Both the position numbers and the translations under genes were made by a program. The notes beneath the pieces were generated by a model. The model saw only the letters and a list, made by a program, of their open reading frames with translations. It did no database searches and was not told the DNA's origin. This document shows, in pieces, positions 1-4,811 of a stretch of DNA of 39,720 nucleotides (its first letter is position 1; each line of letters starts with the position of its first letter). Source of the DNA: an uncultured Blautia sp. (GTDB lineage Bacteria; Bacillota; Clostridia; Lachnospirales; Lachnospiraceae); NCBI GenBank assembly GCA_944380235.1, contig CALWHD010000163.1, forward strand, positions 1-39,720, given 5' to 3'.

Positions 1-44
1 CCGGAAAAGCGGAAAAAATAAACTCTGATAAAGAAAAAATCGGG

Positions 45-61
45 TTGGCACGGTAATTGCT
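45..61 (+). promoter_or_regulatory. sigma-54 (RpoN) -24/-12 promoter of the BCCT/lyase operon
   Basis: The sequence TTGGCACGGTAATTGCT matches the sigma-54 consensus TGGCAC-N5-TTGCW at every defined position. The GG (47-48) and GC (59-60) dinucleotides are exactly 10 nt apart. The inferred transcription start is near position 72, about 50 nt upstream of the BCCT gene. Sigma-54 promoters need an ATP-driven enhancer-binding activator. None is encoded in the window, so it would have to lie left of position 1 or elsewhere. I see no sigma-70-type promoter for this operon. Confidence 0.8.
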
Positions 62-96
62 CTTATATTTTAGTAGATAAAAAAGAAAGGAGAGAG

Positions 97-111
97 CCGG
101 TTTTATACCGG
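97..111 (+). promoter_or_regulatory. Small hairpin between Shine-Dalgarno-like sequence and BCCT start
   Basis: CCGGT (97-101) and ACCGG (107-111) form a 5-bp stem with a TTTAT loop. The only strong SD-like sequence, AAAGGAGA at 86-93, is about 30 nt from the ATG at 123. Folding the hairpin would bring the two to about half that distance. A start at 123 or 132 is otherwise served only by A-rich sequence. The role is inferred. Confidence 0.35.
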
Positions 112-122
112 ACAAAGAAAAG

Positions 123-1703
123 ATGGAAGAAATGAAATCAAGCAAAAAGCCCATTCGATGGAACGTGTTCATCCCATGTTTCGTGGTGATCGGAGGAGCT
201 GCGATTCTGGGCATTGTGAACAACGAATGGCTGACAACGGTGACTAAGGCAGTGTTTACCTGGTCTCTGAGCAATTTTGGATGGCTGTATCAGATTGTTT
301 CCATAGTGACACTGGTACTGGTAGCCTTGCTTGCCTTTTCGAAGATCGGAAATATCCGTTTCGGCGGTGCTAAGGCAAAAGCAAAATATTCCTTTGGTTC
401 CTGGTTTGCCATGACACTTACCGGAGGAATTGCCACAGGTCTGATCACCTATGGTGTCAATGAGGTACTGGTGTACTTCGGAAATATTTATGGAGAGTTA
501 GATGGATACGGAATTGAGGCACTGAGCGAAGAAGCTTCCTATTTTGCTTTGGGACGCTGCTTCTACAACTGGACTTTTATCCCCTATGCAATGTACGCAC
601 TTTCCGGTGTAGTTATTGCATACATGTATTTCAACAGAAATAAAGAGCTGTCTGTATCAGCATCTCTGACACCGCTCTTCGGAGATAGGGTTACAAAGGG
701 ATTCTGGAAGGCGATCATTGATATTTTATCTGTTCTCGCCATTGCCCTGGGACTTGCGTCTTCTCTGGGAGCAGGACTTGCTCTGATTGGAACCGGGCTT
801 GCTTCCGCTTACGGGATTGCTCAGGGACCGGTTGTCTGGTTTATTCTGACTGCCATCATAACAGCTACCTTTACTGTGGCATCTGTTACAGGTATTGATA
901 AAGGAATCAAATGGCTGGCAGGACTGACATCAAAAATTTTCTATGTACTTTTGATCGCGCTGATCATTATCGGACCTACGGTTTACATATTAAATATGGC
1001 GAACGTAGGACTTGGCTACTGGCTGGACAGATTCTGGATGTGGGGCTTTGACCCGTATACCGTAGGAGGAGAAGCGCTGGTTACCTGGTGGACCATGTAC
1101 GACTGGGCAATCTGGATCGCTTATGCGCCTCTGATGGGAATCTTCTTTGCAATCATCGCATATGGAAGGACTATCCGTCAGTTCCTGATCATTAACTGGA
1201 TCCTTCCTGCTTCCTTTGGATTTGTATGGTTTGCCGTATGGGGAGGAACTGCTCTGGACTGGCAGATCCAGGGCAAAGCGGATATTATTGCTACGATTCA
1301 GGAGGAAGGTGCTGTTGCAGGAATCTGGGAATTCCTTCAGCATATTCCTCTGGGATTCATTATCATACCGGTTATCATTGTTGCTTTGATCGCTGCTTTT
1401 TCTACAACAGCGGATACTATGTCTACCACAATTTCTGCACTGTGTACTCAGGGAGCGCGTCATGATGAAGAACCTGCAGTCTGGCAGAAAATTGTCTGGG
1501 GCGTTTCCATTGGTCTGATTGCCTGCATTATGGTTGCGTTCGGAGGCGGCGAGCAGGGAGTCGACGGTGTAAAATATCTGGCAGCCTGCGGCGGTTTTGT
1601 GGTGCTGATCATTTTCATTCTTCAGGTGGCTGCTGCCATTAAAGTATTTTTCTTTGACAAAGAGACAAAGAAGGATATTGAGGAGGGGACCAATGAGAGA
1701 TAG
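123..1703 (+). CDS. BCCT-family betaine/quaternary-ammonium transporter
   Basis: This 526-residue integral membrane protein has about 12 hydrophobic segments. It belongs to the betaine/choline/carnitine transporter family, which moves compounds carrying a trimethylammonium group across the cytoplasmic membrane. The diagnostic region around residues 325-350 (WWTMYDWAIWIAYAPLMGIF) corresponds to the tryptophan-rich signature in the family's TM8, followed by the usual GRTIRQF loop. The length is normal for the family. It is the first gene behind the sigma-54 promoter at 45-61 and overlaps the next gene by 11 bp, so it is translationally coupled to a lyase-like enzyme. That points to uptake of a catabolic substrate rather than osmoprotection. 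The exact substrate cannot be read from sequence; an aromatic betaine such as ergothioneine or hercynine is my inference from the neighbours. ATG 123 is taken as start, with ATG 132 as an alternative. Confidence 0.88.
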   Translation: MEEMKSSKKPIRWNVFIPCFVVIGGAAILGIVNNEWLTTVTKAVFTWSLSNFGWLYQIVSIVTLVLVALLAFSKIGNIRFGGAKAKAKYSFGSWFAMTLTGGIATGLITYGVNEVLVYFGNIYGELDGYGIEALSEEASYFALGRCFYNWTFIPYAMYALSGVVIAYMYFNRNKELSVSASLTPLFGDRVTKGFWKAIIDILSVLAIALGLASSLGAGLALIGTGLASAYGIAQGPVVWFILTAIITATFTVASVTGIDKGIKWLAGLTSKIFYVLLIALIIIGPTVYILNMANVGLGYWLDRFWMWGFDPYTVGGEALVTWWTMYDWAIWIAYAPLMGIFFAIIAYGRTIRQFLIINWILPASFGFVWFAVWGGTALDWQIQGKADIIATIQEEGAVAGIWEFLQHIPLGFIIIPVIIVALIAAFSTTADTMSTTISALCTQGARHDEEPAVWQKIVWGVSIGLIACIMVAFGGGEQGVDGVKYLAACGGFVVLIIFILQVAAAIKVFFFDKETKKDIEEGTNER

Positions 1704-3234
1704 CAGGAAAATAGAGAAGGTGGTCCTGGGAGAATGGCTTTGCCTGGAAGAATTTGCTGCTGTGGCACGGTACGGGGCAAAGGTTGAATTTTCTCAGGAA
1801 TATTGCAGCAGAGTACAGAAAAACAGGACACTGGTAGAAAAATGGGTGGACGAAGGCCGTGTTATGTATGGAGTTACCACCGGTTTTGGCGCTCTGTGCA
1901 CAAAAGCCATTGATAAAGAAGAGACAGAAAAGCTTCAGGAAAATATTATCCTCACCCACTCAGTTTCCGTAGGAGAGCCTTTGAAACAGGAAGCGGTACG
2001 CGGAATTCTCCTGATGGTGCTCCAGAATCTGGGTCAGGGCAGAAGCGGCGTCCGTCTGGAAGTCCTGGAACAATATAAAGAATTTTTAAACCGGGGGATC
2101 ACACCCCTGGTCCCCTCAGAGGGAAGTGTGGGCTATCTGGCGCTGGAGGCCCATGCCGCGCTGGTACTCATGGGTATGGGAAAGGCATGGTATCAGGGAG
2201 AACTGATGGACGGCGGCGAAGCTTTGGAAAAAGCGGGATTGAAACCACTGAAACTGAGTTCTAAAGAAGGACTGGCATTGGTGTCCGGCACGACATCCCC
2301 AACCGCTTTGGGAGCACTGGCGCTGTATGATCTGTTAAAGGCAGCAAGGACGGCAGATGTTATTGGTGCTCTCACACTGGAAACTTTAAAGGGTGTAATG
2401 AATGCTTTTGACGACAGGGTTATGCAGGTGCGTCCTCACGGGGAGCAGAGAAGGGTTGCAGAAAATATACGGAACCTTTTGAAAGACTCTGAAATTATCA
2501 AGAAATATCAGGGAAGCAAGGTGCAGGATGCCCTTTCCTTAAGATGCATGCCGCAGCTTCACGGAGCAGCAAGGAAAACTCTGGAAGATGCGAGAAAGAC
2601 TATAGAGATTGAGATGAATTCCTGCTGTGACAATCCCATCATCTGGGGAGAAGAAGGAGAGGAAGATGTGATTTCTGCCTGCAACGCAGATTCTTCTTAT
2701 GTGGGGATGGAAATGGACAGTGCGTCTATTGCAGCATGCACACTGGGAAAAATGTCAGAGAGAAGGAACAACAGGATCATCGATGAAAGTCTTTCCGGCT
2801 ATCCCTGGTTCTGCATCGGCAAACCGGGATTAAATTCCGGGCTTATGATCCCTCAGTACACTCAGGCAGGTCTGCTCAATGAGATGCGTGTACTTGCATC
2901 TCCGGCTGTTATCGACAATACGCCTACCTGCGGAAACCAGGAGGATTATGTGGCAATGGGATATTTTGCCTGCAAAAAAGCAGGAATGATCGCAGAAAAG
3001 CTGGAATACATCCTTGCTATTGAACTGCTCTCTGATTATCAGGCGCAGCAGTTCCAGGATCAGGATATAAAGAGAAGTTCTGTGTCAGAGGCAATTTACA
3101 AAAAGCTGGGCGAAAAGATTCCGGTGATGGAAAATGATATGCTGATCTATCCTCATTTGGAGTATCTGAGAGAGGAAGTCCATGAGGGAAGAATTTTGGA
3201 CTCAGCAGAGGAAATTGCAGGGGAAATTTACTAA
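1693..3234 (+). CDS. MIO-less aromatic-amino-acid-lyase-fold enzyme, probable ergothionase-type betaine lyase (copy A)
   Basis: This 513-residue protein has the histidine/phenylalanine ammonia-lyase fold. It shows the YGVTTGFG loop (Tyr59), the HSVSVGEPL segment, QDALSLRCMPQLHG, an E-x-NS-x2-DNP motif, GLNSGLMIPQ and NQEDY. In canonical HAL and PAL the GSVG motif is followed by ASGDLAPLAH, whose Ala-Ser-Gly cyclises to the MIO cofactor. Here GSVG (144-147) is followed by YLALEAH, so exactly those three residues are missing. From memory, ergothionase of Treponema denticola, which removes trimethylamine from ergothioneine, is a member of this superfamily that works without MIO. The linked BCCT transporter fits such a substrate. 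Automated annotation will probably say 'histidine ammonia-lyase', which the missing MIO argues against. The start is ATG 1693 after GAGGAGGGG; a longer frame from 1654 lacks a ribosome site. Fold certain, substrate inferred. Confidence 0.72.
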   Translation: MRDSRKIEKVVLGEWLCLEEFAAVARYGAKVEFSQEYCSRVQKNRTLVEKWVDEGRVMYGVTTGFGALCTKAIDKEETEKLQENIILTHSVSVGEPLKQEAVRGILLMVLQNLGQGRSGVRLEVLEQYKEFLNRGITPLVPSEGSVGYLALEAHAALVLMGMGKAWYQGELMDGGEALEKAGLKPLKLSSKEGLALVSGTTSPTALGALALYDLLKAARTADVIGALTLETLKGVMNAFDDRVMQVRPHGEQRRVAENIRNLLKDSEIIKKYQGSKVQDALSLRCMPQLHGAARKTLEDARKTIEIEMNSCCDNPIIWGEEGEEDVISACNADSSYVGMEMDSASIAACTLGKMSERRNNRIIDESLSGYPWFCIGKPGLNSGLMIPQYTQAGLLNEMRVLASPAVIDNTPTCGNQEDYVAMGYFACKKAGMIAEKLEYILAIELLSDYQAQQFQDQDIKRSSVSEAIYKKLGEKIPVMENDMLIYPHLEYLREEVHEGRILDSAEEIAGEIY

Positions 3235-3296
3235 AAGGCATAGAGCAGAAATGGTGCGTAAAAATAAATTCAGCGGCAGAAAGGGGATGCTTTTAC

Positions 3297-4811
3297 ATGA
3301 AAAAAGTGATACTGGGACAACCTGTCAATCTGGAAGAATTTATTTCTGTGGCAGTCTTTCACAGTGAAGTGGAGTTTTCTGAAGAATATAAAGACAGAGT
3401 GGAAAAATCCAGGAAAATTCTTGAAGCGTGTGTCAGGAGAGAAGAGCCGGTATACGGTACAACTACAGGATTTGGGGCTTTGGTCACAGAATTTATTCAA
3501 AAGGAACAGGCAGAGCTTCTTCAGAAAAATATTATTCTCACTCACGCGGTATCTGTAGGAGAACCTATGGAAGAAGAGGAAGTGAGGGCAGTGATCCTGA
3601 TGGTACTTCAGAGTCTGGGACGCGGGGTCAGCGGAGTACGGCTGGAGCTTCTGGAGAGATACCGTCAGTTTCTGAATAAAAATCTCATTCCGTATGTTCC
3701 CAAAGAGGGCTCTGTGGGATATCTGTGTGCAGAGGCCCATATTGCCGGAGTTTTGATCGGAGAGGGAAAAGCCTGGTATCAGGGAGAACTCCTGCCGGCA
3801 GCAGAAGCTCTTGAAAAAGCAGGAATCCAGCCTATCACTCTCAGTTACAAAGAAGGTCTGGCGCTGATCAATGGAACTACGTCACCTACTGCTTTGAGTG
3901 CTCTGGCAGTTTACCGCATGGAACAGGCAGTGAAAGCGGCAGATATTGCGGCATCCATGTCGCTGGAAGGGCTTGGCGGGCTTCTGCGTGCTTATGATTC
4001 TCATGTGACCGGCTGCAGGCCTCAGAAAGAGCTGTGCCAGACAGCACAGTTCCTGTGTGATCTGCTGGAAGGTTCACAGATTATAGAAAAGGCAAAAGAT
4101 TCTCATCTTCAGGACGCACTTTCGCTGCGGTGTGTTCCTCAGCTTCACGGAGCGGCAAAAAGAGTGATCGCGGATGCCAGGGAAGTAGTGGAATGTGAGA
4201 TCAATTCCTGTGGGGATAACCCAGTGATTTTTGGAACAGAAGAGGAACCTGATGTATATTCCAATGGCAATCCGGATGCATCCTATGTGGGAATGCAGAT
4301 GGACGCTCTGTGCGTGGCTGCTGCAAATCTGGGGAAAATGTCAGAACGCAGAAACGCCAGATTTCTGGATAAAAATCTGTCCGGACTGCCTTGGTTTCTG
4401 GCAAAGGACTCTGGTCTGAACTCTGGTCTCATGATTCCTCAGTATGCTCAGGCGGGAATCCTGAACAGGATACGCATGCTGGCAGTTCCTGCAACTGCAG
4501 ATAGTGTATCTACCAGCGCAGGTCAGGAGGATTATGTATCTATGGGATACAATGCGGCGGTGAAAGCCAATGAAGCGGTCCGCTGCCTGGAGTATATTCT
4601 GGCAGTGGAAGTTTTCTCAGCTTACCAGGCACAGCAGTTTTTTGACAGCAGTCTGAAGAGGGGAAAAGGAACCGGGGCGGTCTATGCTGCTATGAACAAA
4701 GAAGTTCCGGTGATGGAGAAAGATATGTATCTCTATCCCTGGCTGGAATGGACCAGAAACTGGATCAGAGAAGGAAAGCTTCAAGACACAGCGGAGCAGG
4801 GGCTCCTTTGA
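3297..4811 (+). CDS. MIO-less aromatic-amino-acid-lyase-fold enzyme, probable betaine lyase (copy B)
   Basis: This 504-residue paralogue of the preceding gene is roughly half identical by eye and collinear over its whole length. It keeps YGTTTGFG (Tyr53), HAVSVGEPM, QDALSLRCVPQLHG, the E-INSCGDNP motif, GLNSGLMIPQ and QEDYVSMGY. It again shows GSVGYLCAEAH (138-148) in place of GSVG-ASG-DLAPLAH, so it also cannot form MIO by the usual route. It differs from copy A at likely active-site edges: STSAGQEDY against PTCGNQEDY, and INGTT against VSGTT. This suggests a second substrate or a heteromeric enzyme; the superfamily forms tetramers. It lies 62 nt after copy A, with an AAGGGG ribosome site 7 nt before the ATG, in the same transcript. 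Its product is unlikely to be urocanate. Neither urocanase nor a thiourocanate-handling gene follows in the window. Confidence 0.7.
   Translation: MKKVILGQPVNLEEFISVAVFHSEVEFSEEYKDRVEKSRKILEACVRREEPVYGTTTGFGALVTEFIQKEQAELLQKNIILTHAVSVGEPMEEEEVRAVILMVLQSLGRGVSGVRLELLERYRQFLNKNLIPYVPKEGSVGYLCAEAHIAGVLIGEGKAWYQGELLPAAEALEKAGIQPITLSYKEGLALINGTTSPTALSALAVYRMEQAVKAADIAASMSLEGLGGLLRAYDSHVTGCRPQKELCQTAQFLCDLLEGSQIIEKAKDSHLQDALSLRCVPQLHGAAKRVIADAREVVECEINSCGDNPVIFGTEEEPDVYSNGNPDASYVGMQMDALCVAAANLGKMSERRNARFLDKNLSGLPWFLAKDSGLNSGLMIPQYAQAGILNRIRMLAVPATADSVSTSAGQEDYVSMGYNAAVKANEAVRCLEYILAVEVFSAYQAQQFFDSSLKRGKGTGAVYAAMNKEVPVMEKDMYLYPWLEWTRNWIREGKLQDTAEQGLL

Follow-up and report, generated by a model that had tools for sequence, protein, structure and literature searches.

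The window, a 39,720-nucleotide stretch of contig CALWHD010000163.1 from an uncultured Blautia sp. (assembly GCA_944380235.1, a 2.72-Mb draft that is 82.7% complete), opens with an operon for a BCCT-family transporter and two paralogous proteins of the histidine ammonia-lyase (HAL) fold, lyase A and lyase B, neither of which has the Ala-Ser-Gly tripeptide of the 4-methylideneimidazole-5-one (MIO) cofactor (Table 1). Sequence comparison makes their assignment to the class of MIO-free trimethylamine lyases well supported. With a probability of about 0.62, we read the operon as a sigma-54-controlled pathway of histidine-betaine breakdown, in which hercynine would be cleaved to urocanate and trimethylamine by an MIO-free lyase, with B as a second enzyme acting on this or a closely related imidazole betaine. 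We also favor, with somewhat less assurance, the broader view that the clade of A and B (GYL, defined below) is an undescribed family of hercynine trimethylamine-lyases. These would provide an MIO-free second entrance to histidine degradation, evolved beside ergothionase in the HAL superfamily and distributed from Blautia and Clostridium symbiosum to bacilli and Acinetobacter, with B and the type C lyases as sister enzymes for further imidazole betaines, those of type C working together with aconitase X and MttB-like enzymes.

Table 1. Elements of the BCCT-lyase A-lyase B operon in the window
Feature	Position	Strand	Evidence	Proposed role
Sigma-54 (-24/-12) type promoter box TGGCACGGTAATTGC	46..60	+	1 match, 0.10 expected per window (shuffling)	
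BCCT-family transporter, 526 amino acids	123..1703	+	PF02028, 1e-111, 374.2 bits (cut-off 27)	Putative importer of hercynine or a like betaine
Lyase A, 513 amino acids, ATG at 1693, MIO-free HAL fold	1693..3234	+	PF00221, 4e-166	Proposed hercynine trimethylamine-lyase
Shortened loop GSVGYLALEAH of A, replacing GSVGASGDLAPLAH	2122..2154	+	Alignment	
Lyase B, 504 amino acids, MIO-free paralogue of A	3297..4811	+	PF00221, 6e-162	Proposed lyase for the same or a related imidazole betaine
Shortened loop GSVGYLCAEAH of B	3708..3740	+	Alignment	

A and B are 55% identical to each other, and in both of them the HAL loop GSVG-ASGDLAPL is replaced by the shortened versions listed in Table 1. In the numbering of Pseudomonas putida HAL (set on the 1gkm sequence and in agreement with the HAL mutant titles Y280F, F329A, and D145A), both have Tyr at position 142 and gaps at 143-145. 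The absence of the cofactor tripeptide from both enzymes, which a preliminary description of this DNA had reported, is confirmed. Of the 117 superfamily rows whose highest score is against A or B, 116 likewise lack Ala-Ser-Gly and have Y-- there, the sole exception being L125 2556-4136. Rows with Y-- at HAL 142-144 are called GYL; because the group is defined by this feature, its lack of Ala-Ser-Gly is not independent, and the independent figure is 116/117. The aligned proteins had at least 400 residues, at least 350 of them aligned, and thinning at >98% identity reduced 195 rows to 183 distinct ones (GYL from 116 to 110, MIO from 55 to 49, ergothionase type 24); the ergothionase-type set consists of rows that are neither Ala-Ser-Gly-like nor GYL and includes a few odd ones (L125, L056, and L196). 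The loop comprises 17 residues in 110/110 distinct GYL rows versus 20 in 47/49 distinct MIO rows, which makes it three residues shorter, and 19 residues (one short) in 24/24 ergothionase-type rows, all 24 of which keep Asp145. With scores of 525.2 and 524.7, respectively, A and B just exceed the NCBI cut-off of 524 for the histidine ammonia-lyase subfamily PRK09367, and they do not reach the cut-off of 539.15 for the hutH equivalog TIGR01225 (508.4 and 507.8), so the earlier warning that a hutH annotation would be wrong is borne out. With NCBIfam (June 2026), A, B, and two ergothionase-type genes of the same genome (see below) were matched solely by histidine ammonia-lyase and related ammonia-lyase/aminomutase models.

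Outside the loop, Arg283, Met382, Gln413, and Glu414 are each kept in 110/110 distinct GYL rows and His83 in 107/110; His330 is replaced by Asp and Pro333 by Tyr or Phe in every row, Tyr280 by Leu in 104, and His416 by Tyr in 90, and the position of HAL Asn195 is occupied by Ser in 74 rows and by Asn in 34. A and B themselves retain His83, Met382, and Glu414 as in HutH, in which we take these residues to bind the imidazole. This pattern would suit an imidazole substrate without sulfur, and the Tyr, Phe, and Asp residues may form a cage for a trimethylammonium group. The predicted fold of A (pLDDT 84.9 and pTM 0.90 from a 16-row alignment; residues 60-68 and 369-381 are poorly predicted) matches P. 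putida HAL with TM-scores of 0.89-0.90 and ergothionase with 0.84-0.86. A and B thus resemble HutH in fold, in the His83/Met382/Glu414 imidazole side, in the Arg283 carboxylate side, and in the urocanate product proposed for them. They differ from it in the missing Ala-Ser-Gly and MIO, the loss of Tyr280 and His330, the presence of Tyr142, Tyr/Phe333, and mostly Tyr416, the BCCT neighbor, and a proposed leaving group that is trimethylamine and not ammonia.

The route that we infer, from transport and substrate to products, mechanism, and everything particular to B, would begin with the BCCT protein bringing hercynine (N,N,N-trimethylhistidine) into the cell. A would grip the carboxylate by Arg284 and the imidazole by His89 and Glu417, as histidine ammonia-lyase does, and the short loop with its new Tyr and Asp residues would give space for the trimethylammonium group. 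The putative base Tyr59 of A (HAL Tyr53) would then remove the beta proton, trimethylamine would depart, and urocanate would result; no MIO electrophile would be needed, because a quaternary amine leaves readily by itself. The urocanate could be degraded by the HutU, HutI, and FtcD of the genome, and B would act as a second lyase on the same or a closely related imidazole betaine. Alternatively, A and B could be histidine ammonia-lyases that work without MIO, or catalytically dead paralogues serving in regulation, as their nearest solved sequences and folds are histidine ammonia-lyases. This is highly improbable, given that the catalytic-type residues are invariant across a clade of several phyla and that the genome has its own MIO-containing HutH. 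Another reading, that the two proteins are trimethylamine lyases for tryptophan, tyrosine, or phenylalanine betaine with aryl acrylates as products, draws on the presence of such betaines in food and, for B or type C, on a sequence that holds nothing to exclude these substrates. However, phenylalanine and tyrosine ammonia-lyases (PAL and TAL) carry Lys and Gln in place of HutH Met382 and Glu414, and Lys382 and Gln414 are indeed found in two PAL/TAL-like MIO rows (one of which, L198, is closest to tyrosine aminomutase), whereas His83, Met382, and Glu414 of A and B are HutH-like. Together with the HutU, HutI, and HutG-like genes that neighbor the relatives, this makes aromatic betaines rather improbable substrates.

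Evidence on the product that would be formed in the hercynine pathway came from the gene neighborhoods of relatives. A scan of named genomes yielded 582 confirmed loci, of which the best 80 were kept, so that the set favors close relatives; some of the 80 are from the same genomes as the genus loci described below, and L086/L093 and L113/L114 each come from single strains. The hosts of these best 80 are Blautia, C. symbiosum, Acidaminococcus, clostridia, Sporomusa, many bacilli, Acinetobacter, a deltaproteobacterium, and a synergistete, and the nearest named relative is Candidatus Blautia merdavium, with a lyase A that is 93% identical. A urocanate hydratase (HutU) gene is located within 9 kb in 22 of the 80 loci (20 of the 57 in which both flanks reach 5 kb or more), including five near rows of the 25-row clade to which A belongs, and is often accompanied by HutI and a HutG-like gene (two HutI proteins that were tested are over the hutI cut-off, and one HutG-like protein is under the hutG cut-off). 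In Alkalihalobacillus BA299 (L102), a run of consecutive same-strand genes encodes HutH, HutU, HutI, a HutG-like protein, BCCT, and the GYL lyase. When 19 of the 22 HutU proteins (all except those of L076, L078, and L108) were typed with the NCBIfam models for hutU (cut-off 375) and thiourocanate hydratase (cut-off 930), 19/19 were over the former cut-off and 0/19 over the latter; 16 are of a short type, with about 984-1020 bits for hutU, and three are of a long type, with 431-455. Paenibacillus sp. Root444D2 has a canonical HutU next to its GYL lyase (L123; hutU 1000.5, thiourocanate hydratase 703), whereas that beside its ergothionase-type gene (L208) is a thiourocanate hydratase (1017.4; hutU 706.5). 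Although limited to one case, this within-genome contrast hints more strongly than any other single observation at urocanate as the GYL product.

The link to urocanate extends to gene content. Two of 30 chosen GYL genomes have HutU and a GYL lyase with no HutH-type gene found, namely the drafts of P. alginolyticus (G088), where no PF00221 gene was found besides the GYL one, and A. sichuanensis (G089), where the PF00221 genes found are the GYL one and a tyrosine-aminomutase-like one only; a third genome (G062), with just fragments besides its GYL gene, was excluded from this count. Urocanase is present in 30/30 chosen GYL genomes versus 48/392 genomes of the order to which the window belongs. 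In this order an A-like gene occurs in 6/392 genomes from only two genera, and urocanase is present in 6/6. The genome of the window carries HutU, HutI-like, and FtcD genes side by side on contig C185.

A transporter gene is the other frequent neighbor. BCCT lies within 500 bp of the GYL lyase in 42 of the 80 loci (41 of these 42 on the same strand), an MFS transporter is found at 15, and any of BCCT, MFS, or SSS occurs within 2.5 kb in 65. In a control of 20 HutH loci that we picked, BCCT was found within 2.5 kb in none and within 9 kb in two. For ergothionase-type loci, the corresponding figure is 13/22 within 3.5 kb. The BCCT protein of the window scores 310.6 against the NCBIfam glycine-betaine transporter model, below its cut-off of 650. 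In a tree of 65 BCCT proteins, it falls in a 17-row clade (support 99), every member of which adjoins a GYL lyase, and a wider 26-row clade includes six ergothionase-linked BCCT proteins as a side group. The GYL label changes 5 times on this tree versus 14.4 times after shuffling (a perfect split would be 1), so BCCT type and lyase type mostly go together.

One of the closest known enzymes is ergothionase from Treponema denticola (6s7j), which shares with A and B the HAL fold, the absence of the MIO tripeptide, Leu280, an acidic residue at 330, and relatives beside BCCT genes. It is set apart from them by an identity of 27-28% in the fold search, a loop one residue short with Asp145, Trp61, Asn62, Gly/Ser382, Ile413, molybdenum-hydroxylase (Mo-hydroxylase) gene neighbors, and a separate clade. 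A and B match 6s7j with E-values of 9.3e-51 and 1.2e-54 and the MIO enzyme 7tqr with 4e-96 and 9e-100, respectively, and their median identity is 37-38% to MIO HutH versus 27-28% to the ergothionase type. The 24 ergothionase-type rows are characterized by Trp61 (19 rows), Asn62 (23), Leu280 (24), Glu330 (21), Gly/Ser382 (21), and Ile413 (21); at the distinguishing positions A and B have Ala61, Leu62, a deletion at 145, Asp330, Met382, and Gln413. In both MIO-free lines, Tyr280 is mostly replaced by Leu and His330 by an acidic residue, and the HutH-like 382/413 side is kept in the GYL line only. In a tree calculated without the loop columns, A, B, and 74 other rows form one clade (support 100) and the ergothionase-type rows form another (98). 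This first tree comprised 4 PDB sequences and the 119 rows that remained of the 195 after thinning on identity and length; it joined the two with a support of 80, in a group that also took in one MIO row. When three long rows were left out, the support was 100 for GYL, 100 for the ergothionase type, and 15 for their join. The loop deletions (three residues versus one) make us lean, short of proof, toward separate losses of MIO in the two clades and not a single shared one.

The genome of the window contains five PF00221 genes: an MIO HutH gene (contig C82, GSLGASGDLAPL), those for A and B, and one each on contigs C116 and C149. The last two (L034 and L035) match 6s7j with E-values of 3.5e-154 and 2.2e-161 and are of the ergothionase type; that on C116 has its own BCCT and Mo-hydroxylase (xanthine dehydrogenase-like) genes. 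By Pfam, both of them are near Mo-hydroxylase genes of this kind, and 16 of the 22 ergothionase-type loci have such genes at a distance of up to 3.5 kb. Their clade, their residues, and the presence of two further genes of the ergothionase type in this genome rule out A and B as ergothionase proper. Of the function proposed in the preliminary description, MIO-free lyases coupled to a betaine-type transporter and most likely releasing trimethylamine stand, and hercynine was among the substrates that it named; membership in ergothionase falls on the E-values for 6s7j, the clade, and the residues, as A and B lack the Trp61, Asn62, Glu330, Gly/Ser382, and Ile413 conserved in the 24 rows. It had also counted clustering with MIO-containing lyases as a point against itself; A and B are closer to MIO HutH in pairwise identity but occupy a clade of their own on the tree.

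A and/or B could still represent a second lineage of ergothioneine trimethylamine-lyases, converting ergothioneine to thiourocanate and trimethylamine. The folds are alike and MIO-free, Leu280 and the acidic residue at 330 occur in most rows of both lineages, and both kinds of lyase are found beside BCCT genes at the frequencies given above. In C. symbiosum ATCC 14940 (L121, 8301-16100), a BCCT-GYL lyase pair is even adjacent to, and convergent with, an ergothionase-type lyase-BCCT pair. We nevertheless regard this alternative as unlikely, as the genome already has two ergothionase-type genes, the 382/413 pocket of GYL lyases is HAL-like and not Gly/Ser and Ile, and no typed neighboring HutU (0/19) is over the thiourocanate-hydratase cut-off. 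GYL lyases probably work like ergothionase without being ergothionase and act on a different substrate.

All three operon proteins are far over their Pfam cut-offs (PF00221 and PF02028). The gene order of the preliminary description was correct: the BCCT and lyase A reading frames share 11 bp (1693-1703), and the paralogue follows. Its single promoter is supported by a sigma-54 box 62 bases 5' of the BCCT start codon. In a consensus scan of the 122 bases 5' of BCCT on the plus strand of the window, no sigma-70-like site was seen. The identical box pattern is located upstream of every BCCT-A operon of the genus for which upstream sequence is available (9/9, window included). For named relatives, 75 of the 80 loci were scanned for a relaxed box in the 350 bases upstream, and it was present in 14 of 26 loci with a sigma-54 activator nearby (missing in the other 12) versus 1 of 49 without. 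Window positions 1-127 coincide exactly with the last 127 bp of contig C188 from the same assembly, and this contig carries, upstream of the operon, rpoN and a divergent sigma-54 activator gene, the longest open frame of which begins 274 bp from the BCCT start. In two relatives of like layout (L042 and L050), rpoN and the activator were confirmed by Pfam. Because of the sigma-54 box and the upstream rpoN and activator genes, BCCT-A-B looks like an induced catabolic operon.

Within the genus, A and B occur together in seven genomes, A occurs alone in three (G008, G013, and G017), and a B-type lyase occurs without A in five (G001, G005, G009, G010, and G012); G001 and G017 are incomplete drafts. 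Since A and B-type lyases are each found alone, an obligate A/B pair is ruled out, and B is a conserved partner of A that is not obligate. The same distribution bears on the idea that A and B assemble into a single mixed tetramer and share its active sites, which would make the tandem a single enzyme. HAL-type active sites are formed from several subunits, and the two genes are adjacent in all seven genomes that have both; against this stand the genomes with only one of them and the full residue set that A and B each retain, and we consider a mixed tetramer very unlikely. In the five genomes with a B-type lyase and no A, B-type and type-C lyases are found in clusters variously with aconitase X, MttB-like, Ldh_2, RidA, and SSS genes. 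The GYL lyases of L036, L038, L044-L047, L108, and L142 are variously accompanied by genes for aconitase X (both the large and the small subunit, in some cases in two sets), MttB-like methyltransferases, Ldh_2, RidA, and an SSS transporter. In Peribacillus (L122, L127, L128, and L131), the GYL lyase gene is followed by one for an FAD oxidase of the sarcosine oxidase/N-methyl-L-tryptophan oxidase family, and MFS replaces BCCT; the FAD oxidase from a related Bacillus locus is over the N-methyl-L-tryptophan oxidase cut-off. The aconitase X/MttB and MFS/FAD-oxidase settings may handle other methylated histidines.

Several observations weigh against hercynine cleavage as the function of the operon. 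To our knowledge, no member of the GYL clade has a known activity, and the imidazole-binding role of His83, Met382, and Glu414 is our assumption from HutH. HAL position 195 distinguishes A from B (Ser/Asn), and the two may therefore act on different substrates. Hercynine cleavage also does not explain why part of the clade sits with aconitase X, MttB-like methyltransferase, and SSS transporter genes. No HutU gene is adjacent to the operon in the window, 58 of the 80 loci have none within 9 kb (some of them on short contigs), and 15 of the 80 lack a transporter of any of the BCCT, MFS, and SSS families within 2.5 kb. The long-type HutU proteins (670-680 amino acid class), comprising 3 of the 19 typed and the organism's own (437 for hutU), are ones about which the thiourocanate-hydratase models say little. 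The thiourocanate contrast is one locus, as HutU is found within 3.5 kb in only 1 of 22 ergothionase-type loci, and the HutU of L208 passes the plain hutU cut-off too (706.5 versus 375).

Trimethylamine from gut bacteria is converted to trimethylamine N-oxide (TMAO) in the liver, and ergothioneine, to which hercynine is related, is an antioxidant of mushrooms. In the open-licence literature, no hercynine lyase was named in the titles and abstract openings among the matches listed. If the hercynine reading is true, the operon would represent an undescribed microbial source of trimethylamine and a second histidine-betaine route, one that standard annotation hides because the genes pass the NCBI histidine ammonia-lyase subfamily cut-off. 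The lyases would also add to the examples of cofactor-free ammonia-lyase scaffolds that have switched to trimethylamine as the leaving group. CutC (choline trimethylamine-lyase) and BbuA (gamma-butyrobetaine) yield trimethylamine, as is likewise proposed for A and B; according to PMC8364193, they belong to families unrelated to A and B, CutC being a glycyl radical enzyme and BbuA acyl-CoA-dehydrogenase-like. Hercynine is trimethylhistidine, the precursor of ergothioneine, and is described in PMC7653990 as a main metabolite of dietary ergothioneine in humans, which would make the substrate available. In PMC13405746, it is argued from supplementation and cohort data, and partly from a BLAST search that placed ergothionase in few genera, that ergothioneine adds little to TMAO, and it is granted there that divergent ergothionase homologues were possibly missed by BLAST. 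Relative to that report of few genera, the Blautia-like genome analyzed here contains two ergothionase-type genes.

Elsewhere in the superfamily, two PF00221 proteins from the deltaproteobacterium Smac51 (L193 and L194) have Cys-Ser-Gly in place of Ala-Ser-Gly, together with Leu280 and Ser329.

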